Below, one piece after another: positions 12,804-62,297 of a DNA stretch of 64,000 bases (positions within the stretch are counted from its first letter, which is position 1; every line of letters starts with the position of its first letter). Origin of the DNA: Aldrovandia affinis. Lineage: Eukaryota; Chordata; Actinopteri; Notacanthiformes; Halosauridae. The notes beneath the pieces were generated by a model. It searched no databases, was not told where the DNA came from, and saw nothing but the letters and a program-made list of their open reading frames with translations. The stretch is taken from contig JAINUG010000327.1 in assembly GCA_029706075.1 (NCBI GenBank), forward strand, positions 52,501 to 116,500. Direction: 5' to 3'. Made by a program: the position numbers and the translations under genes.

Positions 12804-21864
<9,061 letters not shown>

Positions 21865-28752: not shown

Positions 28753-30294
28753 ATGTTTCAGCTTCCGGTCAACAACCTCGGCAGTTTACGTAAAGCCAGG
28801 AAAAATGTGAAGAAGGTTCTGGGGGACATTGGCTTCGAATACTGCAAGGACCACTTCCAGGTAAGCCGTGCCATGCCATGCCATGCCATGCCATGCTATC
28901 GCTCTTCTGAGCCCTGTATTCTCATTGGAATATGTGCATGCCATGCTGGCCCTGCTTGTGAGCGTGTCTGGTCTAGAGAAACACAGACCTTTATTGTACA
29001 CCTCTATTGTGCATAACTAATTGGTTGTTAAAATGCGTTTTGCCTCTTGTTTGATGTGGGGTCGGGGTATATGCAAAATAATTGTCAAATTTACAATCTC
29101 AGTTGACAGATGCCAGATAAGTGATTGAGCAGAATCAAAAGATCAGTTACTGATCAAAACTGTTCATAATTCTTAACCGCTACAGGAATCAAGTAATCTT
29201 TTGCTTGCCATGTTGATTAAAACCTTTTTATTTCAGGGTAGGTTTGTTGTCAAACGTAAAAATTGCTTTAAGGGGGGCGGTGGATGGCGTAGCGGTCTAA
29301 CGCACCACACTTTGTCTGGTCCGGTGTGGTGTGCGCTGCCTGTCAAGGACGCGGTTCGAAACCCGCGTCTCTACCAGCCTAGCCCTGGTCGTCAGCCCCG
29401 ATCGGAGGCGGCATTTGGCTGTCCGCCTCCGGGGGAGGGGGAGGGTGAGCCGGCACGAGTCCGTCGAGGAGCAGGTAAAGGCGTCCGTGGTAGAATTCTG
29501 TCTCGGAAGAGGCGGATCAGTCGGCCCGGAAAGAGTGTCTCGACCCGGAGGACGGGCGGCAGACTCGTGGGGGAGGGGAATTGAGATAAATAGAGGGTAT
29601 AATTGGCAACCAAATTGGGAGAAAAACTGGAAAAATTTAGAAAGAAAAAAAATAATTGCTTTAAAAGGACAAATTAAATGAAGTCTCACAAAGTAGACTC
29701 CTATGAGGCAGCATCGCATGCGTGATAAAGGGAGCCCATTGAACAATGCTTCCTAAAGTTAACATTTCCAAACAAATGGATATTATTGGCTACTGTATCC
29801 AGCGTTACAAGTGTATCCGTCACGTACCTTCGATAAGTATACAGCTATGAGCATAGACGACAGCTAGCCATTCTAATTGCTTCTGCCAGCAGGGGGTCAT
29901 CATTGCATGGAGGAATGCATCATTGCATTTGATGGAATTCAGCCAGTACAGTGTGCAAGGGGGGAGGAATTGTTGCACAAGGAAGCATATTTACATGGAA
30001 CAATACACTGCACCAATATTTGTGAATTGCAGCAAGATGGTCCCAAGATGCATTCTTTTAAAAAATATATAATAGATCAAAAATTGATATATTTGAGCCT
30101 AAAATGCTGACCCCCCCCCTCTTGTATATATTGAAGTTTTAGTTTTATTAACAAAGTTATTTATTGTGTCATTTGTGTAGGATTTCAAAGATTTTGTCCC
30201 CAATGACTTCTACGTGAAGAACACTACCTGGGATGATCTGTGTTTTTGGGATCCATCATTAACCAAAATCCAGGTGGGTTGCACACATGCACAT

Positions 30295-30344
<50 letters not shown>

Positions 30345-33300
30345 ATACGTTGACAGTCTCCAATGCCATTGTACAGGAAACACTTGTAGTTACTCTCTCT
30401 CTAGTCACATAATCATTCACATATTGCCTTCAAGTCGTAAGTAACACGCCTGGAGTCTCTGTTATGTGGCTAACATTGTCTGACACTGGTTCTCCTCTAA
30501 ATACACACCAACACTCATCCTATGCCCAGATCAGTAGGCCATTGCTCCTTTTCCTTAATAATATCAATGATTGCATATTGTCATTATCTCTGCACTGTGA
30601 TGGCAAGTTCTTAATTCCTTTCCACATGCAGACCAGTAACATGTTCCTTGTTTTTAAGTTTCATGATGAAACTCAATCTTGCTTCTGTATTTTGGTTGGG
30701 TGACTCAGGACTACAGGTCAAAGCCATTCTGCTGCTCCGGCTGCCCCTTCTCCTCCAAGTTCTTCTCGGCCTATAAGAGCCACTTCCGAAATGTGCACAG
30801 CGAAGACTTTGAGAGCCGGATCCTGCTCAACTGCCCCTACTGCACCTACAATGGGAACAAGAAGACCCTGGAGACGCACATCAAGCTGTTCCACATGCCC
30901 AACAATGTGGTGCGGCAGGGCGTGGGCAGCGCGCAAGTGGGGCTGAAGGATGGCGCGCGGCTGGACATCAACCAAAAGCCCAGGCCAACGGACAGCGTGG
31001 AACAGGCAGTGTACTACTGCAAGAAGTGCACCTACCGGGACCCGCTGTACAATGTGGTGCGCAAGCACATCTACCGGGAACACTTCCAACACGTGGCCGC
31101 GCCTTACATGGCCAAGCCGGGCGAAAAGTCTCTCAACGGCGCCGCTGCCGGGAACGCCAGCACCACCCGCGAAGATGCGCTCCACTGTAAGCGCTGCCTC
31201 TTCGTGCCCCGCTCGTACGAGGCACTGGTGCAGCATGTCATCGAGGACCACGAGCGCATCGGCTACCAGGTCACCGCCATGATTGGCCACACTAACGTGG
31301 TGGTGCCCAGGTCCAAGCCCATCATGCTGCTCACGCCAAAGACGGGGGACAAGGGAATTCTGGGAGTGACACAGAAGGGTGCCCTGGTGACCACCGGTGT
31401 CCGCCCCCTCTCCACTCAGCAGTTGAGTCGGATCGTCATCCCCAAAGCTGGCTTGAACTCGACAGGGCTGCTGTCTGGGGTTCATCTGAAGCAGGGCCCA
31501 TATGCCCTAAAGAGCGGGGGCACAACGCAGACGTTCACCAGCGGCGGCCAGCAGGTGCGCATCACATTGCCTGGCAACGCACAGGTTTCCGTCCCACAGC
31601 AGTCGCACACTGTCAAGCAGCACCTGCCTGGGGGCAACGTTCGCAGCCCAGGGGTGGTTGGATTGGTGGACGGTAGGAGCTTGTCGGGGACCTCTTCCTC
31701 ATCATCCTCCTCTACGCTCAAGCCCGGATCACTGCCCTCGCGAGTGCAGGCCGCCGCCGCCACTGTGGCCTCAGTCGCAGCCAAGAAAGGGGGCACCTCC
31801 ATTCTTGGCACCTCCTACACACAGAAGTGGAAAATCTGCACCATCTGCAATGAGCTCTTCCCCGAAAACGTCTACAGCGCGCACTTCGAGAAGGAGCACA
31901 AAGCGGAGAAGGTTCCGGCAGTAGCTAATTACATCATGAAGATCCACAACTTCACCAGCAAGTGTCTGTACTGCAACCGCTACCTGCCCAGTGACACTCT
32001 CCTCAACCACATGTTGATTCACGGCCTGTCTTGCCCCCATTGCCGTGCCACCTTCAACGACGTGGAGAAGATGGTGGCCCACATGCGGGTTGTCCACCCG
32101 GTGGAGGTGGTGGGCCCCCGCACCGACTCTCCACTCACTTTCGACCTCACCCTCCAGCAGGGAAACCCCAAGAACATCCAACTGATTGTCACCACCTACA
32201 ACATGCGGGACGCTCCTGAGGAGTCTGTAGCCTTCCACGCCCAGAACAACTCTTCTGCCGCTCAGAGCAAAAAGATACCCCCTAAGATGCCCGACGGCCT
32301 GGATGTGTCAGTGAAGAGTGCGCCCCAGGCAGCCGTCCCATACAAGAAGGACGTGGGCAAGACGCTTTGCCCGCTGTGCTTCTCCATCCTGAAGGGGCCC
32401 ATCTCCGACGCGTTGGCGCACCACCTGAGGGAGAGGCACCAGGTGATCCAGACGGTGCATCCTGTGGAGAAGAAGCTGACCTACAAGTGCATCCACTGCC
32501 TGGGCGTCTACACCAGCAACATGACGGCCTCCACCATCACGCTGCACCTTGTGCATTGCCGCGGCGTGGGCAAGACGCAGAACGGCCAGGACAAGCCCAG
32601 CGCGCCCCCGAGGGTGGTCCACCCAACGGGTGTGGCATCCCTCAAGCGTGAATTAGAGCACTCGGACCCAGCTTTCCTGAAGCGGCGGAAGGTCGACCAG
32701 GAGCAGGGCACCGCGGCTTTTGTGGAGAAGCCCGAGGAGCCGGTGGTCTTAGCGCTGGACCCCAAAGGCCACGAGGATGAGTCCTATGAGGCGCGCAAGG
32801 CCTTCCTCACCGAGTACTTCAACAGGCAGCCTTATCCATCACGCCGCGAGGTGGAGAAGCTGGCCGCCAGCCTGTGGCTCTGGAAGTCGGACATCTCCAG
32901 CCACTTCGCCAACCGGCGCCGGAAGTGCGTTCGGGACTGCGAGACCAAGAAGCCGGCGGTGCTGTTTGGCTTCAGCATGCGGGACGTCAACCAGCTCAAG
33001 CACGGCATGGACTTTGACCCCGAGTGGTTTTTCCAGAGCAAAGACGAGGAGGAGAGCCGGACGTCCAAAACGTACATGGGGCGGTCCGCAGACTCTATCA
33101 ACCGCCGCCTGGGGGAGAGCGCTGCAGCCGCCGCCGCTGCGGCCGTACGCCAGCAGGGAAAACAAGGTGTGAGTGTCAACTGTAGCCAAGGGCCAACGTT
33201 GCCCGACAGTGCGAAGTCTGGGTCCACACCTGACGTACACGGAAGCGACCAAAACAAGACAATCGATTGCACCTTAAAACAAAGAACTGATAAGCACTCA

Positions 33301-33857
33301 GAACCCATTGCCCTGGACTCCGACAGCGGGTCAGGGAGGAGGAGGAGGAGGAGGAGGAGAAAGAGAAAGAAAAAGAAAAAGGAGGAAAAAGATCTAAAGA
33401 GAGCAGTGTTCCTGCTGAAGAGCTGATGGAGGTGGGAGAAGGAAGTGGCGAAGAAGCAGCACATGCAATGGAGGTTGACGCCCCGGAGGAAGAGGAAGAC
33501 GAGGTGAAGGAGGATTCCACGCATGGCGATGAGCTCGACCAAGTGAAGGGGGACAGCCCCGAGGCCAGCTCCCCGGGCGACTCGGACGCGGAGGAAGGGC
33601 CCTGGGCAAGCGAAGTGTCTCGTGAGAATGGATATGGGCCAGCCAAGCAGCCGGGGAGAAAGGAGGAGGAGGAGGAAGGGGCGGCTGCGGCCAAGCTGCT
33701 GGGGAAGAGCCATTCCTCGGCATGGCAGGACCACAGCAGCCAAGGCAAGGGAGAGGGCAGGCAAGAAGCTCTAATGCTGGAACAAGCAGCCGGAGCTAAG
33801 GATCCGGGGCCCAGCATGCTGTCTGGAGGCGTGGAGCTGAGCAGTCAGCAGGCATAA
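28753..33857 (+). CDS. adnp: activity-dependent neuroprotector homeobox protein, with apparent frameshift
   Basis: Nuclear zinc-finger/homeobox chromatin factor (partners known from mammals: CHD4, HP1, SWI/SNF). Coding exons: 28753-28860, 30181-30273, 30709-33857; the first begins at 28744 with nine untranslated bases. The N-terminus [17 protein letters not shown] is the family signature. Nine C2H2-type fingers run from residue ~74 ([10 protein letters not shown]) to the YKCIHC...HLVHC finger. The homeodomain is at ~756-815 (ending [15 protein letters not shown]). The NAP octapeptide is NAQVSVPQ at ~356 and the ARKS site reads ARKA. The frame opened at 30709 stops at 33426, but the -1 frame continues to 33857 and ends in the conserved LSSQQA. 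A one-base deletion in the GAG/GAAA tract (33294-33423) would explain this; read through, the protein is ~1116 residues (human 1102). As written it would be 972 residues with a basic tail. Teleosts have adnpa and adnpb; which one this is remains unresolved. Confidence 0.95.
28868..28895. repeat. (CATGC)n pentanucleotide repeat
   Basis: Five CATGC units starting eight bases after the donor of the first adnp coding exon. The next bases diverge (CATGCTATCG). Confidence 0.9.
29272..29653 (+). mobile_element. tRNA-derived SINE, family A, full-length copy with TSD
   Basis: The best forward copy of the family, in the adnp intron. Head GGGGGGCGGTGGATGGCGTA, A-box-like GCGTAGCGGTCTAACG, B-box GGTTCGAAACCC, body GCGGCATTTGGCTGTCCGCC and GAGCCGGCACGAG, tail CCAAATTGGGAGAAAAACTGG. 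A perfect 11-bp duplication AATTGCTTTAA flanks it (29261-29271 and 29654-29664). Confidence 0.92.
30287..30345. repeat. (CA)n microsatellite
   Basis: A CA dinucleotide run starting about 14 bases after the donor of the second adnp coding exon. Confidence 0.92.
33336..33403 (+). repeat. (GAG)n/(GAAA)n purine tract inside adnp coding exon
   Basis: A GGA/GAG trinucleotide run followed by GAAAGAGAAAGAAAAAG. It reads poly-Arg/Lys in the upstream frame and poly-Glu then Glu-Lys in the frame that leads to the conserved C-terminus. This is the likely place of the frame break. Confidence 0.85.
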
Positions 33858-41992: not shown

Positions 41993-44608
41993 ATGAACAA
42001 AAATCACCGAGTGCCGAGCAACCGAACTCTGAGCGCCGTGGAGGTGAAGAGTAAGGTGCGTATTAACCAGCAAGTAGATGTGCAGTGTGTCTTGTGCCGC
42101 AGCACCCCCTGTTATAAAAGCCATGGCTAGCAAACTAGCTAGCAGCTTACTATCGCCCTCTTAAGATTGTCTGTGCCGCTAGCCAGCTACTAGCTATCCA
42201 GGTTTCGGCTTAGCCAACTTGCTAGCTACCTACGCTGCGAAGACAGAACAAGTGTCAGGACGGGTTTGTTTTGGGGGGTGTTGCTAACGTAACGTTAGAA
42301 GTTGTCATGCGATGTTCTTGTAACTGGGAGCTAGCGGGCTCGTGAAGTTGGAGGGATGTCATTGAGGGCGACAAGTTAATGTTTTTTTTGTCAACATGCT
42401 AGCCAGCTATCTAACGGCATGTCACGTATTATTACGCAGCCCTGGCTACCACAGAAAGCATTCCGAATCACAAACGGTGCTTAATGCCAGCCAGCGAGCT
42501 TGCAAGTCACGGAACAATTAGCTAGTTGGCTAACTAGCTGGCTAACGCTAGCTTTGAATCTTTTTCCTCTCTCTGGGTCAAATTGCGTTTGTCTATAGCC
42601 TAATGGCTATCTCAGATGTGTGGGTCTATAAAAAAACTTTGGAAAACAACAGGTATTACCAGTTAGCTAGCTGTACTTTACACGTAGCTAACGAATGTTA
42701 GTTTTTCTTATAACTTTTGTTAACGCAACGTTACAGGTTACAGCTCACAAATGTATTTGCTATTGCTGTGTGAAGAAAATACAGGGGAAACGGCTACAAT
42801 TGGGAATGTAACTTGGCTAATGTTGGTTAGCGAAATTGTTTGAATTAAAAGTTGTGTCTGGTTTGCCAAAACGAGTAAATTAACCATGGCCCTTGGACTC
42901 TTGACGGACCTGTCTTATTTAGCTAGCTACCTGCTTCCTCCAACAGGTGGACCGTTTACAGGCAGGTTGATTTGGCCTCTTTCCAGTTTACAGGAGGTGC
43001 AGGAACGTCTCGTTTCGTTAACGTAGTGCACTTCTATCGCAGCGTTGTGTTGTTATCCAGCCCATTGCGAATGTGCAGCAAAGGTGTAGACAATTAGCGT
43101 CTTTAGCAGGCGAATTTACCAATGTAATTTACATTTCTTATTTATTTCATTAAACGATGAATTACACCTTCCACGTTACGTCTTCGAGAAATGCGAAACA
43201 AATTCATAGCTAGTTAGCAGTATCGAGCTAGATCGTTTAAAAAAATCTGAAGGCATATCCCGGTTAACTGCAAATGTAGCTGCATTTGTTGATGATCTGC
43301 TTGAATGACAAACTAAATAACGCTAGGTAGCCAAGTCAAGTCATACACGGACATTATAAATGAGGGAAACAAATGAGTCACGTTTACGTTAAATAAAGAT
43401 AGCTTGCTAGTTCGCTATATAAAGTAGTAGCTACCACTAAAACTGGAGCATTTGGCTTTGCTGATTTGGTGGGAGTTGTCCCAAGTTATGATTTCACAGC
43501 AAAAGGTTAACGAGTCACTGAAAGTTCCAAATAATTTCATTTTAGCTCTAATTGTTACACGATAACAGCGAAACCTATGGGATGTCAGTGAACCGAGAAT
43601 CTCAAACGATAACATACTGCTTGAAAAGAAAATGATTAATGCCAGTTTAGTACCTCATAAGTACGGTCATCTTGACCGTTTGAGGTCAGACCGTAAATGT
43701 TCCAACGCAGCGTGCTTTGTACGCTGCTAACTGACAGCCAGTCGCACTTGTTTTTCCCTGTCCAGGCATCACATTTTTCCCTTGCAAATAACCCAAGACT
43801 TTTGAAACCACACTGTGTGAATAATGAGCGCTTGAAGCACACAGTTCCTAACTGGTACACTAGCGGGAATTCCTGCGGGCAAAAAGCGACTGATTCATTT
43901 AAGACCGATGTGTCAACAGGGGCTGAAGACGCGAGCGCGTGCGTGTGTGTGCGCGCGCGTACGTGTTTCGGGATTATTTCGTAAGAAACAATGCCTCCAT
44001 CGATACATTTGACAAACAAAAGAAAGTAAAAGAAACGTATTAAAAATATTTTCAAATAAGTCAACTCCTGCAGCAGAGAAAGACCCCCCCTCCTGTCATG
44101 CACTAACACACACACAAAATCCACTCATTTGTTTAGAAAACGGACACGCAGTAAAAATTTGTTGGTCAAATTAAAGCCCTTGTGATGCATGCTGGATCTG
44201 CATAGACCCTGAGGAACTACTTATGACATAGCATTTGAGTTGTTGAGCATGTATTGTCATGCAAATGGTCCCTGTATGGTTTACGTATCATCACCCTGTG
44301 TGTTATAAATCCTCTCCTCCAATCTACAACTGTGTGTTTGTGTGTGTGGCAGTTTGGTGCCGAATTCCGTCGGTTCTCCCTGGATCGCTCGAAACCGGGT
44401 CGATTTGACGAGTTCTACGGGCTCCTGCAGCATGTGCACCGCATCCCTAACGTAGACCTGCTGGTGGGCTACGCCGACATCCACGGGGACCTGCTACCCA
44501 TAAACAACGATGACAACTACCACAAAGCCATCTCCACCGCCAGTCCACTGCTGCGCCTCTTCCTACAGAGAAAAGGTATGGGAGAGGTGGCTTCTGGGGG
44601 TGTACTGC

Positions 44609-44661
<53 letters not shown>

Positions 44662-46303
44662 TGTGTATTGAACAGGCAACAAAACCAATAATTATTTGTA
44701 AAAAGTAGTAATACGTTTTTAAAAAGGCATTTCCATTTCCATTTCCATTAGCCTTCATTATGACTGACAAGCCTGTAAATTCTGGTTCTGGCATTGTCCA
44801 GTGCAATTGGAGTCATTAAAAATGAACAATGAAGGATAATTTTATTTCCTCGCCCACCCTCCTCTTAATCTCAGGCTGCTTCGTCTTGCTGTAACATGTC
44901 TGCTGAGGACTGAAAGTGGCAACGTGATTGTTACAAGTGCTATTGGATTTCTGACCTGTCTTGGTTGGGCTGTGTGTGGAAATGGCCCGACTGCAGATTC
45001 AGCGTCTGTTTTGTCTGTTTGAGTGATACTGAGAGATTATGACCTCAGGGCTCCGTGCTTAAGCTCTCTCCCAGTGCCATACGTCCTGTAGACGCTAAGC
45101 CACTTTGTCAGACTGGGATTACAGGGGTCACTGTGTAATACCGTATGCTTGAGTTTCGGTTACGAGTGGACGCCAGCGTCACACTGCGGTCACACCCACT
45201 GTCGCTCCTAATATAATATAATAAAATACGCCATTTAGCAGACGCTTTCACTTACAGTAGTGAATGCATACATTTTTCAGTATGTGTGGTCCCAATGGGA
45301 ATTGAACCCACAACCTCAGCGTTGCCAACGCCATGCTCTACCCACTGAGCCACACAGAACCACGTGGCTCCTCCGGCATTGTGAACTGTACTGTGTTTGG
45401 GCCGAGAGGCGGTCAGAAGTGTGTGTGCGCGCTTGTGAGCATGGGTGTACATTTGACATTTTAAGCATTTAGCAGACGCTCTTGTCCAGAGCGACTTACA
45501 AGATGTGCATTAATACATGGTAGATAATACATGTACAACCTTCCGTGTGTCACTCCTACCTGTTTGGAAAGCTTTGGCTCAAGCAGTGGTGCAAGTGTGC
45601 ATGTTATGCAGTGTGTATCTAATTTAAGAGCTCAAGACTGAATTCCCCTCTTATAGTTATTAATGAACGAATGATATAGACTTCACTGACTGACCTTCAC
45701 TTTTGCTGTGCTTAACATTTACGTAGCTACGGTCCACCTTGCGTTTAAATTGAAGGTGTGGCGTGCAGATCTTATCACTGCATGGTAGAGGTGGCGGTTT
45801 TACATAGGTAGGGAGACCGCTCTGCTGATCTCTTGGATTTCATTCAGTGGGTTACTGTGACAACGTTACCTTTTAAATTTTTCTTAAAAATAAAACTGTG
45901 TAGATAAGTAGAAAGATTTTCATGTGTCGTTTGAAAAACTGAAAAAAATAAGATAACACAGACTGTCCCTAAAACCAGAGTAATGACTGAGTGCAATAGA
46001 TTTTTGAACACACTGGTATGAGTGCTCTCTTGAAATAAGGTTGGTGTGTTTGTGTTTGTGTGGGAGATGGAGCGTGTTATGTAGCCTACGTATTGAATTT
46101 GACAAGGCCGTCAGGTCTAGAATGAGATGTGGATATTGTGCTCCTCCTCGAGTCCTTCTTTTCATCCCAGCCTCAGGGCTTAATCACTCCCACCTCCTTT
46201 ATCCAGATAATTTCTTGTTGTTGCAAGTTGTACCTGCAAAACAAGAGCCGTCTGACCCCTAACCCCTTAGTCCTGGCATGCACACGCACACACACACACA
46301 CAC

Positions 46304-46635: not shown

Positions 46636-49600
46636 TTTGTTTGTTTATGTTTGTTTATAACCTGATGCTGTATGTCTGCCATTCCAGTGCAACCAAATTT
46701 GTATTTGCATCCACCCGGTGGAGTCTTACATTCCACTACACAAGTGCTTCTGACCGCAAACAACTTCAAAGCTTTTCAACTTTTGATGAAAGAAATCCAG
46801 ACGGTCACGCTTCGGTTATTGCTGTTTTGGAGAGACAATGAAATGCTTGTGGAGGATGATGTACAGTACTGGAGGTGAAGTGTAAATGATAAGAACAATA
46901 CTCAGTTACCTCGGTGAGAGTAAGCGTTGAAGAAGATCCATTCTGCTATGGTATTTTACCCAGAATAAGGTTACCTGCTTCCACTAAACTTGCCTGGGCC
47001 CAGGATGAACCTGCTGTCATACCAGGGATTGGCCAGTATTCTATTGGTCAGGGACAGTTTGCAGTGCAAAAGCTTCCAGCTTGCCTCAGGTGTAGCTGAC
47101 TAACAGCTAAGTCAGGTCAGAGGAAAATGTAGCTTATGTGCTGCTTCCCTTACTGAGAACTGCGTTGTCATTGGCCAGACAGGCAGCATCGAAGCTGCTG
47201 CTGGGAGTTCTTGGGTACTTTCCGTGGTTCTCTGTGGCTGAGTTGGTAGAGCACAGCGTTGGCAACGCTTAGGTTGTGGGTTCAATACCCACTGGGTCCA
47301 CATATACTGAAAAATGTATGCATTTACTACTGTAAGTCGCTCTGGATAAAAGCATCTGCTAAATGGCATATATTATTATTTTTTTTTTTTAATGAGAAAA
47401 AAGCCAAGACCAGTGGCATTGGGCAACTGCAGAAAAGCAGTGGTCTTTGCTCCCACGTCATGGTCAGTCCGTGCACTGGGGGCGACGTTTAGAAGCTCTG
47501 TGCCATCTGTAGTCAGTCAGCAGAATCCCTCACTCAATATGAGCAAATATAGATGTGTGATTGTGTGGCATGGTGGATAGAGCACTGGACTTGAGGTTGT
47601 TTTGCTCCCCGGCGAGGTATTTACCGTAGTCACGCAATCTAGACACAAAGTCTACAGGATTTGCTATGCCTCCATGTTATTAATTTAAAAATAATTTAAA
47701 TGCATATCGACAATTGGATTTATTATTTATTATTATTATTTTTTTTTTTACTCTATATTCTATTTTCCTTTGTCTGCGATCAGCCGAATCCATAATATAC
47801 ATTGGAAAATGTGAAAATCAACAACCTTTTTGTGAAACCAGAACTAGGTTTGTGACGACATGGTACCCAGAGGTAGTTTCTCCTCATAAGCACCCAGAAG
47901 GTTTGCCGGTTGGTTTCCCTGACCGCCCTGATACCTGCTGGTGTTTGGGAGGCTCTCCGTTACCCTGCAGAAATATGTAAACAGTGAACAGAGTGCGTAA
48001 CAAACAGAGGGAGTCATTGATGGCGTGGTTCAGTCTTAGATAACGACTCGATAACGCTGACTAATGTAGTGTTTGAACTAGCCCGGATATAGCCCAGGTA
48101 AACCTTTGGTCATATTTTGTTCCGGTTAGGCCTATACCTTCGGCCCCGGCTGGCACTCGTCTCTCACATCTGCTAGAGTAGATCCAAAATCACGTTTACT
48201 TGTGGAATTTCAACAAAAACATTTTTTAAAGGGCTCCAAGCTGGCGCGGTATAGCCCAGGTGCACTTGAATATGGCCGGTGAGAACAAGGCATGTGACTC
48301 AAACGTATGGGCCTCCTTGTTACATAAACACAGTGAAAAAGAGAGAGGGGGAGAGGCAGAGAAAGGCAGGCTACCTACCTGCCAGGACTGGAATGGATGT
48401 TGTAATGCAGTGAGTTGTGTCAACCATGTATGTGAGTTATGCGACTTTCGTGTGCACTGTTGCCAGGGCTGGTTTTTTTTTTGGTGGGGGGTTTGAGCGC
48501 CAAGTCAATTGTACTACAGCTCATTGTATTCATAACCCATGTTAATCACCAAAGGCCAACAGTCTCTGCATGCTTACAGTAGGTTTAGGCTTCTATGCTA
48601 ACATTTTTGTTTGAAAATCTTGCATCGTGGGTCACTGATTCCCCTACCCAGCAAGACTGGATGGAGTCCAGTCTTGCCTGGCATGTGCGTATGCGTGAAG
48701 GTTAAACACGCATACACAATGAAATCCCATTACCTTTTGTGGCGTTTCATTTGAATAGGAATGCATTGTGTTTATTGTTTGTATGAAACGGCGTGCAAAA
48801 GAACATTAATCTGTGAAACAAAAGACTTGAGTGCATTCAGAAGTGATATGAAAATAATGTCCAAAATTTCCTGGAGCGGTCTGCGTGACCAATGAGCCGT
48901 CACTGTGGCTGGCTGGGAGGGAGGAAGGGAGGGAGGGAGAGAGAGAGCAGTGAGGTGTGTGTGGATCTGGTTGGGGGATGGAGGGGTGGGAACTCGACCA
49001 TGTGGAATGTGGCCAGCCTCTGATCAGTCCTTCTTTGGAGATTGGAGAGGACAGGAAGACTGTACACAAGAGTGAGAATTTGAGCCCAAAAGCCCCCGGG
49101 GTGGGAGGAGGATGGAGTCGGCGGTGGCCGCAGAGCGTGGCTGTGGATTCACTGCTCAGCTATGCAGGGGTACATTAATTCAGAGGTGACTGTACCTGGC
49201 ACTGTGGGTAAAACCTCTGAGGATTGCAGTGCATTAATGATAAAGGGCATACACAGGGCTGTGGTTTGAGTCGGCGAGGATGAGCAACACAATTTATTCA
49301 TCCACTCATTCATTCAGATGTCCTTCCAGAGAAACAATGAAAAACAGAGTCTGTATGCGCTGTTAAAGCACTGCCTTCATTTCAAATTTCCATATATATT
49401 GTTACACTATCAGTTTACAGTTTATTAGTCTAGGCGGGAGTGAGGGGGCCCTTGGAGGTGGCGATGGATAGATAGACATACAGCCAGCAGTGGAGAAACA
49501 CAGGGCTAAACCCAGCATGTAGGCAGAGAAGAGACTGTGAGTGAGAAAAGCGGTGGTCCAAAGGTGTGCATGGGTGTGTGCATGAGTGTGAATGGGTGAA

Positions 49601-51251
49601 TGGGTGTGCGTGTGTGTGCATGACTGTGAATGGGTGTGCGTGTGTGTGTATGAGTGTGCATGGGTGTCAGATGGTGCTGAAGGGAGAAAGGAGTTTTAGG
49701 TGTTCAAGCGAGATGGCTGAAGGGCTTGTACCAGTAGCTGTGTGGGGGGAAATGGACAGATTTTTCCTCACGTTCTCTGTGAAGAAGGAACAGCATTCTA
49801 GGAGAAGGTAATTGAAGGTAATTGCATTGTTATTCGTAATTCCAAGGCTCTTGGAAAATGCTCAAGGCATTGTTGGTTTTGGTTTTGGTTTTGGTGTTGG
49901 TTTTCGGAGATTGTCAGGTCCACGGTTTGTGATAATTCGGCTGGGAGGGAAAGGAATGGCCGACAGAGAAGTTAAGCTTCAGGCGACGGGAAGTCATTCC
50001 GTCAGCGACATGAGCAAGGCAGGTGCGATGCCTGAAGGGAGCTGTGTAACAGAAGGAAGAGAAGGAATGACAGATGTGAGTATCATCTCCGTGACGGTGG
50101 TATGAGAACCCCCGGGAGGCTGTGAGTGGCGGCAGTGGGAGAACGGTGGGTCCGGACAGAGCGTCGTTATACGCTTGTGGTCAGAAGCTGTGGGGGTCGG
50201 GAGATGTAGTATAATGGTTAGGGAACTGGGTTTGTAACTCAGAGGTTGCAGGCTCGATTCCCAGGTGGGGGCACTGCCATTGTATCCTTGAGCAAAGTAC
50301 TTAACCTAAATTGCTTCAGTAAATATTGCTTCAGCTGTACAAATGGATTGTATGTAAAAGAAATGTAAACTGTAAGTCGCTCTGGATAAGAGCGTCTGCT
50401 AAATGGCTAAAAATGTTTTTAAAAAATGTAAAAATGGGAGATGGAGCTGGAACGGACAATTCAGCTAAAAAAACTTTTTTTGGGGAGGGGGGGGGGGCTG
50501 GGCCTTTAAGAGCAGTAGATTAACAGTTCTGAACTGTCATAAAACATTTCATGGGGGGTGACATGTTAGGGTAGTGGTGTGGGGGACCACAGCAGTCACG
50601 GGGAGGATGACTGCCTCCATGCAGTGGTCAGCAAAGAGCAGTGGCTGGTCGCGCTGTTGAGCATCTCACAAGTGCCGCAGAGGGGAAATGGAAAAAGGGA
50701 CTCTGGCCGGTAATTTGTTGGACAACTCTTGGAGTTAATGTCCGACGCAGGCTTGCTTGGAAGAGTGATGTGCTTTTCACGCTGTCCTTGATCCGCGCTC
50801 TAATGCGGCACCATTTTGAGCATCACATCCGTTGTGTTGATGTACGCTTAGGAGATGAGTGATGTGATTTGTAACCCAAGAGCATACACTCTCTCAGAAA
50901 CATAATTACCATAATGGCTAAATTAAATTGTTACTCCAGAAGGCTAAGTAGCTATACATGTTTGTCCACTCCACAAAATTGGATTTTGCGCAGAGTCGTA
51001 CGGGCTTTTTGAACCATTCCGTTTATCTCCAAAGATTGCGATTTTTCTCCTGTCTTCCACCCTCCATTGCGCAGTGTTTTCTTCTTCTTTGCTGTTTCCC
51101 ATACATCTCTCACAGTCCTCCATTTTTCAGAGCAAAGCTCCTGGAGAGCGTCCTATGACATCACGTGCCGTCTTGACAGTGTTGTTCCCTATGCAGAATG
51201 GGGGCTTTGCCGCCCCCCCTCATCCACAGCCATTATTATGGGTCGAGCTCG

Positions 51252-61321: not shown

Positions 61322-61395
<74 letters not shown>

Positions 61396-62297
61396 CCTCC
61401 CTCCCTCCCTCCCTCCCTCCCTCCCTCCCTGCAGAGGAGGCAGATTACTCGGCGTTCGGGACCGACTCTCTGACCCGCAAGAAGACGGTGCTGTCGGCGG
61501 TGCTCCTGCGGCCGGACAACAACCGCAAGAAGCCGGCGGTGATCATCAGCCTGCCGCGCGACTTCCGGCCCGTGTCGTCCATCATCGACGTCGACATCCT
61601 CCCCGAGACGCACCGGCGCGTTCGCCTCTACAAGCACGGCCAGGAGAAGCCGCTGGGCTTCTACATCCGGGACGGCTCCAGCGTGCGCGTCACGCCCCAG
61701 GGCCTGGAGAAGGTGCCGGGGATCTTCATCTCGCGCATGGTGCCCGGCGGGCTGGCCGAGAGCACGGGGCTGCTGGCGGTCAACGACGAGGTGCTGGAGG
61801 TCAACGGCATCGAGGTGTCGGGCAAGTCCCTGGACCAGGTGACGGACATGATGATCGCCAACAGCCACAACCTCATCATCACGGTGAAGCCGGCCAACCA
61901 GCGCAACAACGTGGTGCGCAACAGCGGCGCGTCGGGCAGCTCCGGCCGCTCGTCCGACAGCGGGGCCAGCCACTATGGCTACCGGGCCCCCGCGGCGGCC
62001 ACGCCCTCCTCCGCCGCCGCCGCCGCGCACATCGTCCAGAACTACGGCGAGGGCGAGCCGGAGAGCGACGAGGACGACGAGGACCTGGTGATCGAGGTGG
62101 GCGGCGAGGCCGAGGCCGCGCCCGTCCCGCGGGCCGCCTCCAGCAGCTGCAGCATGCCCTCGCTGCCCCGCTACGAGCCCCACCTGGGCCTCCGGCCCAA
62201 CGGCGCGCTGGCCACCAGCAGCAGCGCGGGCTCGCTGAGCGCGCCCGAGAATGAGCGACGGGGCCTGGAGGAGGACGGAACGGTCATCACGCTGTAG
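41993..62297 (+). CDS. pard6b: partitioning-defective 6 homolog beta
   Basis: Cytosolic scaffold of the PAR3-PAR6-aPKC polarity complex at apical junctions. It binds aPKC through PB1, GTP-bound CDC42/RAC through the semi-CRIB, and PAR3, Crumbs or PALS1 through PDZ. Exons: 41993-42055, 44353-44575, 61435-62297 (TAG), 1149 nt in frame, 382 residues (human 372). The PB1 domain spans about residues 16-96 ([16 protein letters not shown] ... [20 protein letters not shown]). The semi-CRIB is near 133 ([17 protein letters not shown]) and PDZ at ~155-251 ([15 protein letters not shown] ... [11 protein letters not shown]). The C-terminus EEDGTVITL matches the family. The linker after PDZ is divergent, with Ala runs and an acidic [12 protein letters not shown] stretch. 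Exon 3 is extremely GC-rich at third positions. The start is the first ATG, giving MNKNHR like vertebrate PARD6B. PARD6A/G are excluded by the N- and C-termini. Confidence 0.96.
42120..43420. repeat. TAGC/AACGTTA-rich tract in pard6b intron 1
   Basis: Starts about 65 bases after the first coding exon. Examples: GGCTAGCAAACTAGCTAGC, GCTAACGTAACGTTAGAAG, GGCTAACTAGCTGGCTAACG and CCAGTTAGCTAGCTG. It is densest to about 42730 and thins afterwards. Confidence 0.75.
44609..44660. repeat. (TTA)n microsatellite
   Basis: About 17 TTA units, starting 34 bases after the donor of pard6b exon 2. Confidence 0.95.
45211..45359 (-). mobile_element. tRNA-derived SINE with L2-type tail, second type, copy 1
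   Basis: On the minus strand: GTGGCTCAGTGGGTAGAGC (A-box-like) and GTGGGTTCAATTCCC (B-box), then a short body and a tail whose plus-strand form is GCCATTTAGCAGACGC. The head differs from the 2401-type SINE but the tail is shared. Not a tRNA gene, since the second half of the cloverleaf is not followed by a proper acceptor stem. Confidence 0.8.
45450..45530 (-). repeat. L2-type LINE/SINE 3' tail fragment
   Basis: TTAAGCATTTAGCAGACGCT followed by CTTGTCCAGAGCGACTTACA is the reverse of the L2-type tail. GATGTGCATTAATACATGG follows, and the same stretch recurs at 56238-56312, so both are fragments of one element. Confidence 0.7.
46278..46336. repeat. (CA)n microsatellite
   Basis: A CA dinucleotide run with two GCA interruptions in pard6b intron 2. 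Confidence 0.9.
46591..46631. repeat. (GT)n microsatellite
   Basis: A GT run followed by TTTG tetranucleotides, in pard6b intron 2. Confidence 0.9.
47230..47376 (+). mobile_element. tRNA-derived SINE with L2-type tail, second type, copy 2
   Basis: CTGTGGCTGAGTTGGTAGAG and GTGGGTTCAATACCC are the tRNA-like boxes. TAAGTCGCTCTGGATAAAAG and GCTAAATGGCATATATTATT form the tail. It is the forward counterpart of 45211-45359. Confidence 0.8.
47555..47620 (+). mobile_element. SINE head fragment
   Basis: TGTGGCATGGTGGATAGAGC followed by ACTGGACTTGAGG resembles a tRNA A-box region, but no B-box or tail follows. A truncated copy is likely. Confidence 0.35.
49560..49680. repeat. GTGTGCATGGGT minisatellite-like tract
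   Basis: Irregular 8-12 bp units built on GTGTGCATGGGTG and GTGAATGGGTGTGC, in pard6b intron 2. Confidence 0.7.
50203..50436 (+). mobile_element. tRNA-derived SINE with L2-type tail, copy 2 of the 2401 type
   Basis: Block order matches 2401-2625: GTATAATGGTTAGGGAACTG, a GGCTCGATTCCCAGG B-box, CTTGAGCAAAGTACTTAACC, and GTCGCTCTGGATAAGAGCG with AAATG-type tail repeats. Confidence 0.88.
51241..51290. repeat. (CT)n microsatellite
   Basis: A pyrimidine dinucleotide run ending in a C-run (TCTCCCCCCC). Confidence 0.9.
52981..53105. repeat. (CA)n and (ATGC)n microsatellites
   Basis: CA runs at 52981-53045, then a self-complementary GCATGCATGCATGC tract at about 53087-53105. Confidence 0.85.
53683..53912 (+). 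mobile_element. tRNA-derived SINE with L2-type tail, copy 3 of the 2401 type
   Basis: Almost identical in layout to 2401-2625: GTAGTGTAATGGTTAGGGAG, GGTTCAATTCCCAGG, GTACCCTTGAGCAAGGTACT, TCCAGCTGTATAAATGG, then the tail with AAAATGTAAAAT repeats. Of the three, it keeps the best match over the body. Confidence 0.9.
55018..55242. mobile_element. mariner/Tc1-like MITE
   Basis: CGGTGCCCCTTTAAAGT at the left and ACTTTAAAGGGGCACTG at the right are inverted repeats with one mismatch, enclosing about 190 AT-rich bases. The internal CACATTTTGTTGCCTTACAG resembles a block common in fish Tc1-like repeats. It is flanked by a TA repeat, so the duplication cannot be defined. Confidence 0.65.
56079..56141. 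other. perfect inverted repeat (26-bp stem, 11-base loop)
   Basis: The arm 56079-56104 (CAAATGGCCCTGGCC...) is the exact reverse complement of 56116-56141 (...GGCCAGGGCCATTTG); the loop is AGCTGGGCAGG. No other copy was noticed in the window. Confidence 0.9.
56238..56312 (-). repeat. L2-type LINE/SINE 3' tail fragment
   Basis: TTAAGCATTTGGCAGATGCT with CTTATCCAGAGCGACTTACA and GATGTGCATTAATACATGG, matching 45450-45530 closely. Confidence 0.7.
58712..58764 (+). other. G-quadruplex-prone run
   Basis: Eight runs of four or five G separated by one- or two-base loops (CA, C, CT) within about 50 bases on the + strand, which is the non-template strand of pard6b intron 2. By sequence rule this is a strong G4 candidate. 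Confidence 0.75.
59240..59308. repeat. two poly(T) runs
   Basis: Two T runs of about 22-24 bases separated by AAGCGGAGTTTCAGCA. No SINE body is attached. Confidence 0.85.
61205..61430 (+). repeat. (CT)n/(CCCT)n pyrimidine tract at a splice acceptor
   Basis: About 225 bases of almost pure pyrimidine: CT dinucleotides, then CCCT units, running directly into the GCAG acceptor of the last pard6b exon at 61435. It doubles as an extreme polypyrimidine tract. Confidence 0.93.

Follow-up and report, generated by a model that had tools for sequence, protein, structure and literature searches.

The 64,000-nucleotide stretch of fish DNA analysed here (the window; C1831:52501-116500 of the assembly) carries an adnp gene that is, with high confidence, intact apart from one short indel near 33334-33340, by which the given sequence departs from the ancestral one. 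A single missing base, or two surplus bases, at the 5' boundary of a GGA microsatellite would shift the reading frame. As written, the protein has 972 residues, the last of which are basic and non-homologous; were translation to pass into the -1 frame at 33336, its length would be about 1115 residues and its tail acidic. The indel probably goes back to an error in the purine tract, made in sequencing, consensus or assembly. The identity of the gene, the two frames and the homology of the -1 tail with that of a second (sister) adnp of this genome are shown, whereas the indel as cause, and an error rather than an allele as its origin, are inferred.

The adnp gene and its two reading frames

The gene lies on the + strand and consists of three coding exons, the last of which is large. 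The first exon (28753-28860) begins with the ATG start, matches positions 1-36 of the Pfam family ADNP_N (E 8.3e-17) and ends at the donor CAG/GTAAGC. The second exon (30181-30273), located by motif and joined in frame, covers ADNP_N positions 32-68, and the last (30709-33426 in the main frame) belongs to a frame open from stop to stop over 30670-33426 (918 aa). Matches to ADNP_N (1246.5 bits, cut-off 27) and to the homeodomain (30.2 bits, cut-off 22.9) identify the gene as ADNP (activity-dependent neuroprotector homeobox). A conserved C-terminal tail in the same frame, also expected of an ADNP gene, is absent from the window as written, in which the tail lies in the -1 frame.

The main frame ends with a TGA codon at 33424-33426, where an earlier sequence-only reading had placed its stop. 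The same reading had described a -1 frame that is open over 33294-33857, runs through the same purines and ends in LSSQQA, all of which is reproduced from the sequence; the frame is 187 aa long. The two frames overlap over 33294-33426. The E-rich tail proper (33336-33857, + strand, 173 aa), delimited by the open frame, the codon model and the sister-tail alignment, ends in VELSSQQA before a TAA stop. Human ADNP likewise ends in LSSQQA; a literature search with these letters gave no match. The frame is lost in a purine tract (33334-33391, + strand), defined by the sequence itself, Tandem Repeats Finder, the codon model and the nucleotide comparison with the sister gene. It consists of (GGA)8 followed by an A-rich array; Tandem Repeats Finder gives 33335-33359 for the former, as (GGA)8.3, and 33360-33381 for the latter, as an AAAGAA-type array.

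An HP1-binding motif of the PxVxL type is expected in the C-terminal part of ADNP. A scan of 32650-33857 in both frames with P.[VILM].[VILM], a loose stand-in for a family motif that may be degenerate, gave no match. In a PDB search, the main frame had no match at E 0.001 and the tail had none at E 1. The sole Pfam match in the tail frame, UfSP2_N (E 0.081), is under the cut-off and was taken as chance.

The surroundings of the gene contain other coding sequence and several repeats. Upstream of adnp lies dpm1, found as eight tblastn pieces over 12972-21861 with an approximate human DPM1 sequence as the query. Downstream, Pfam identifies an exon with a PB1 domain at 44407-44562 and one with a PDZ domain at 61395-62294 (a 300-aa stretch ending in TVITL), which together look like pard6b. 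The dpm1 pieces and the large PDZ exon showed no frame break, and the adnp break is alone among the coding sequence examined. UnaL2 LINE 3' elements are present on the + strand at 2556-2609, 47319-47372 and 50359-50412 and on the - strand at 45459-45511. Two tRNA-like matches (45295-45352 and 47232-47295) are located within about 200 bases of two of these elements, and such pairs may be tRNA-derived SINEs.

A second adnp gene carries the tail in a single frame

A DNA search of the assembly (G000; 1.22 Gb in 2576 contigs) recovered the window itself and, on contig C1113, two stretches that belong to a second adnp; it gave no further adnp copy beyond these two. With the ADNP_N family as the query, 13 matches were obtained in the assembly, among which four large exons are open for 918 (window), 946, 919 and 989 aa, and the 919- and 989-aa exons are presumably adnp2 genes. 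A set of two adnp and two adnp2 loci would point to a teleost. Searches for relatives in viral_contigs and genome_contigs yielded 2 and 17 stretches, respectively, that fitted a pattern, none of which was confirmed. The sister adnp is encoded on the reverse strand of its region (C1113:8249000-8257500, L004). Transposon-like frames adjoin it there, one of which, 193 aa long, we take to be a Tc1-type transposase look-alike.

The sister gene crosses the homologous place in one unbroken frame of 946 codons from stop to stop. This frame ends ...SSPLSGRVGLSGQQT and then TGA; its last residues, LSGQQT, are in the frame homologous to the -1 tail of the window. When the three frames of the window tail are aligned to the sister tail, the -1 frame reaches a local score of 91 (best of 2000 shuffles 90, a margin of one point) and a global score of 82 (best of 2000 shuffles 50), and none of the 2000 shuffles does as well by either measure. 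For the main frame the local score is 32 and the global score -67, and 458/2000 and 1460/2000 shuffles do at least as well. The third frame reaches 75 locally and 21 globally, with 86/2000 and 115/2000 shuffles as good, perhaps owing to its Gly-rich make-up. Restricted to the last 60 residues, the comparison of the -1 tail with the sister gives a score of 52, and a single shuffle in 5000 is as good.

Both tails have IALD..SGS with acidic residues after it, both contain ENGYG, and both close with LS.QQ. By these alignments the -1 tail is shown to be homologous with the tail of the sister adnp, and the sister gene favours the view that the tail of the window adnp was ancestrally read in this frame. 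The alignment also leaves about 40 residues of the window (33169-33310), between the homeodomain and the acidic tail, without a counterpart in the sister adnp.

Coding statistics of the -1 tail

Openness by itself is only moderate evidence for the tail, because dinucleotide shuffles of its non-overlapping part (33429-33854) keep the given frame open in 138 of 5000 cases and any frame open in 440 of 5000. For the longer stretch 33294-33854, the corresponding counts are 28 and 87 of 5000. A -1 frame of such length is thus uncommon at the given composition, yet possible by chance.

The codon model uses log-odds learned from the upstream exon, with the triplet frequencies of the window as background. 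Switching from the main to the -1 frame scores best at 33325 (+18.9), compared with -10.4 for the main frame followed to its own stop. Switches at 33319-33337 lie at most 2 units below the best, and a late switch at 33421 still gives +15.6. Segment scores favour the main frame as far as 33333 and the -1 frame over 33334-33857; past 33858 all three frames are poor. Comparison with an approximate human ADNP sequence agrees with the -1 tail and is weaker than the comparison with the sister gene: against the whole window tail, 21/500 shuffles are as good for the -1 frame, 447/500 for the main frame and 469/500 for the third. For the last 48 residues of the window tail against the last 60 of human ADNP, 7 of 2000 shuffles are as good.

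Position and nature of the frame break

The nucleotide comparison places the break most likely at the 5' boundary of the GGA tract, at about 33334-33340, because the window leaves the frame at the start of (GGA)8, where the sister continues with acidic residues. The sister reads ...LDIESGS-EQEGQEEQEK, and the window reads ...LDSDSGS and is then out of frame. At the nucleotide level, GGG TCA GAG CAA GAG in the sister corresponds to GGG TCA GG GAG GAG GAG in the window. A break inside the A-rich array appears less likely, since a run of Arg codons would then face acidic and Gln residues of the sister. Gain or loss of entire GGA units leaves the frame unchanged, so only a change by a number of bases not divisible by three can truncate the protein. 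The exact base within the repeat cannot be assigned.

The sequence-only reading had proposed a missing base in (GAG)n/(GAAA)n as the simplest cause. This proposal holds in its main part, with the sister gene supporting the -1 tail frame as ancestral, and is refined in two respects: the 5' edge of the GGA tract is a likelier seat than the A-rich array, and a surplus of two bases explains the break no less well than the loss of one. GGA tracts elsewhere in the genome (30 loci sampled, four distinct tracts displayed) were uninformative, none having a long open GAG frame on both sides.

Origin of the indel and alternative explanations

An isolated break fits an error and a young real mutation equally well. 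With one assembly and its sister adnp as the basis of comparison, an error in the purine tract appears to be the probable origin. According to extracts of PMC9186530 and PMC10462168, GA-rich sequence is a weak spot of HiFi coverage.

A real indel is a less likely explanation: a recent mutation, fixed or segregating, would truncate the window adnp, for which the intact second copy could serve as a backup. A purine microsatellite is a plausible site for such a mutation, the genome does contain an intact second adnp, and human last-exon ADNP truncations are disease alleles (as given in an extract of PMC11208605). Zebrafish with a mutation in adnpa or adnpb alone are reported to grow to adults that show no evident morphological defect (PMC7293280), and a real truncation beside an intact copy might therefore be tolerated. 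Easy tolerance is, however, at odds with the developmental delay and brain deficits reported for adnp/adnp2 mutant zebrafish (PMC11395604), and the frame-preserving nature of whole-unit GGA slips also speaks against a real truncation. An old truncation is unlikely, because the tail is still stop-free over the 142 codons from 33429, although 57 of the 1278 possible single-base changes there would create a stop. About 22 neutral changes are expected before the first tail stop, so a moderately young truncation is still compatible with the open tail.

An intron within the last exon that takes out the break and joins the frames, such as 33169-33326 or 33169-33728 (each beginning with GTGAGT), is very improbable. 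There are 605 GT-AG pairs able to join the frames, and with a rough matrix of approximate frequencies the best pairs with the donor at 33169 reach 10.8 bits (33169-33728) and 9.3 bits (33169-33326). With this matrix the real last acceptor of adnp scores only 4.2, which does not surpass the candidate acceptors (3.6 and 5.2 among the two). Such values are ordinary for the same exon, in which 89 of 5366 GT-AG pairs reach 9.3 (spacing 70-800 bases; donors 30709-32999, acceptors up to 33329). Over 33169-33333 the main frame has a better codon score (-5.1) than the other two (-20.2 and -24.1). Both introns would delete codons retained by the sister, which codes for TIALDIESGS at the end of the shorter intron and for ENGYG inside the longer one, and the frame-joining introns were rejected.

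Least credible of all is that programmed -1 ribosomal frameshifting, or polymerase slippage on the tract, yields the full-length protein from the sequence as written. A -1 tail frame that shares 33294-33426 with the main frame, and two in-register G AAA AAG motifs (33369 and 33375), would suit frameshifting, but no X XXY YYZ heptamer is in register in 33294-33423, and the RNA at 33382-33500 folds no more stably than chance (z +0.86; 162/200 shuffles at least as stable, pseudoknots being outside the model). The A runs in the purine tract are five long. The sister adnp, the sole relative with a readable tail compared, has no two-frame arrangement and needs no shift. The sequence-only reading had ranked frameshifting as less likely, and the missing heptamer and fold give it no support. 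Equally far-fetched is the related view that the sequence is real and that one gene makes both a truncated, basic-ended and a full-length, acidic-tailed ADNP by slippage of the ribosome or polymerase.

Comparison with known systems

PEG10 is a gene with a programmed -1 frameshift. The window adnp resembles genes of the PEG10 type in having a conserved -1 tail that overlaps the main frame. Unlike them, it is without a canonical slippery heptamer or downstream structure, and its sister uses one frame.

Another comparison is with indel or coverage faults of assemblies in GA-rich sequence. As described in the extracts of PMC9186530 and PMC10462168, such faults share with the window a purine-rich tract and an isolated defect in an otherwise intact gene. 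They differ in being losses of coverage in long repeats, not one-base errors, whereas the adnp tract is short and its assembly may not be HiFi. Caution is warranted here: one short indel in a purine repeat can cause a conserved neurodevelopmental gene to be annotated as truncated or with a false intron.

If the indel is instead a true allele, it may be compared with human ADNP truncations such as p.Asn832Lysfs*81, which, in the extract of PMC11208605, are alike in that a frameshift in the large last exon removes the C-terminal part of the protein. The window differs from these in being one assembly sequence of a fish whose genome has a second, intact adnp. Such an allele would be a natural fish counterpart of the human ADNP-syndrome truncations, in a species with a second copy of the gene.
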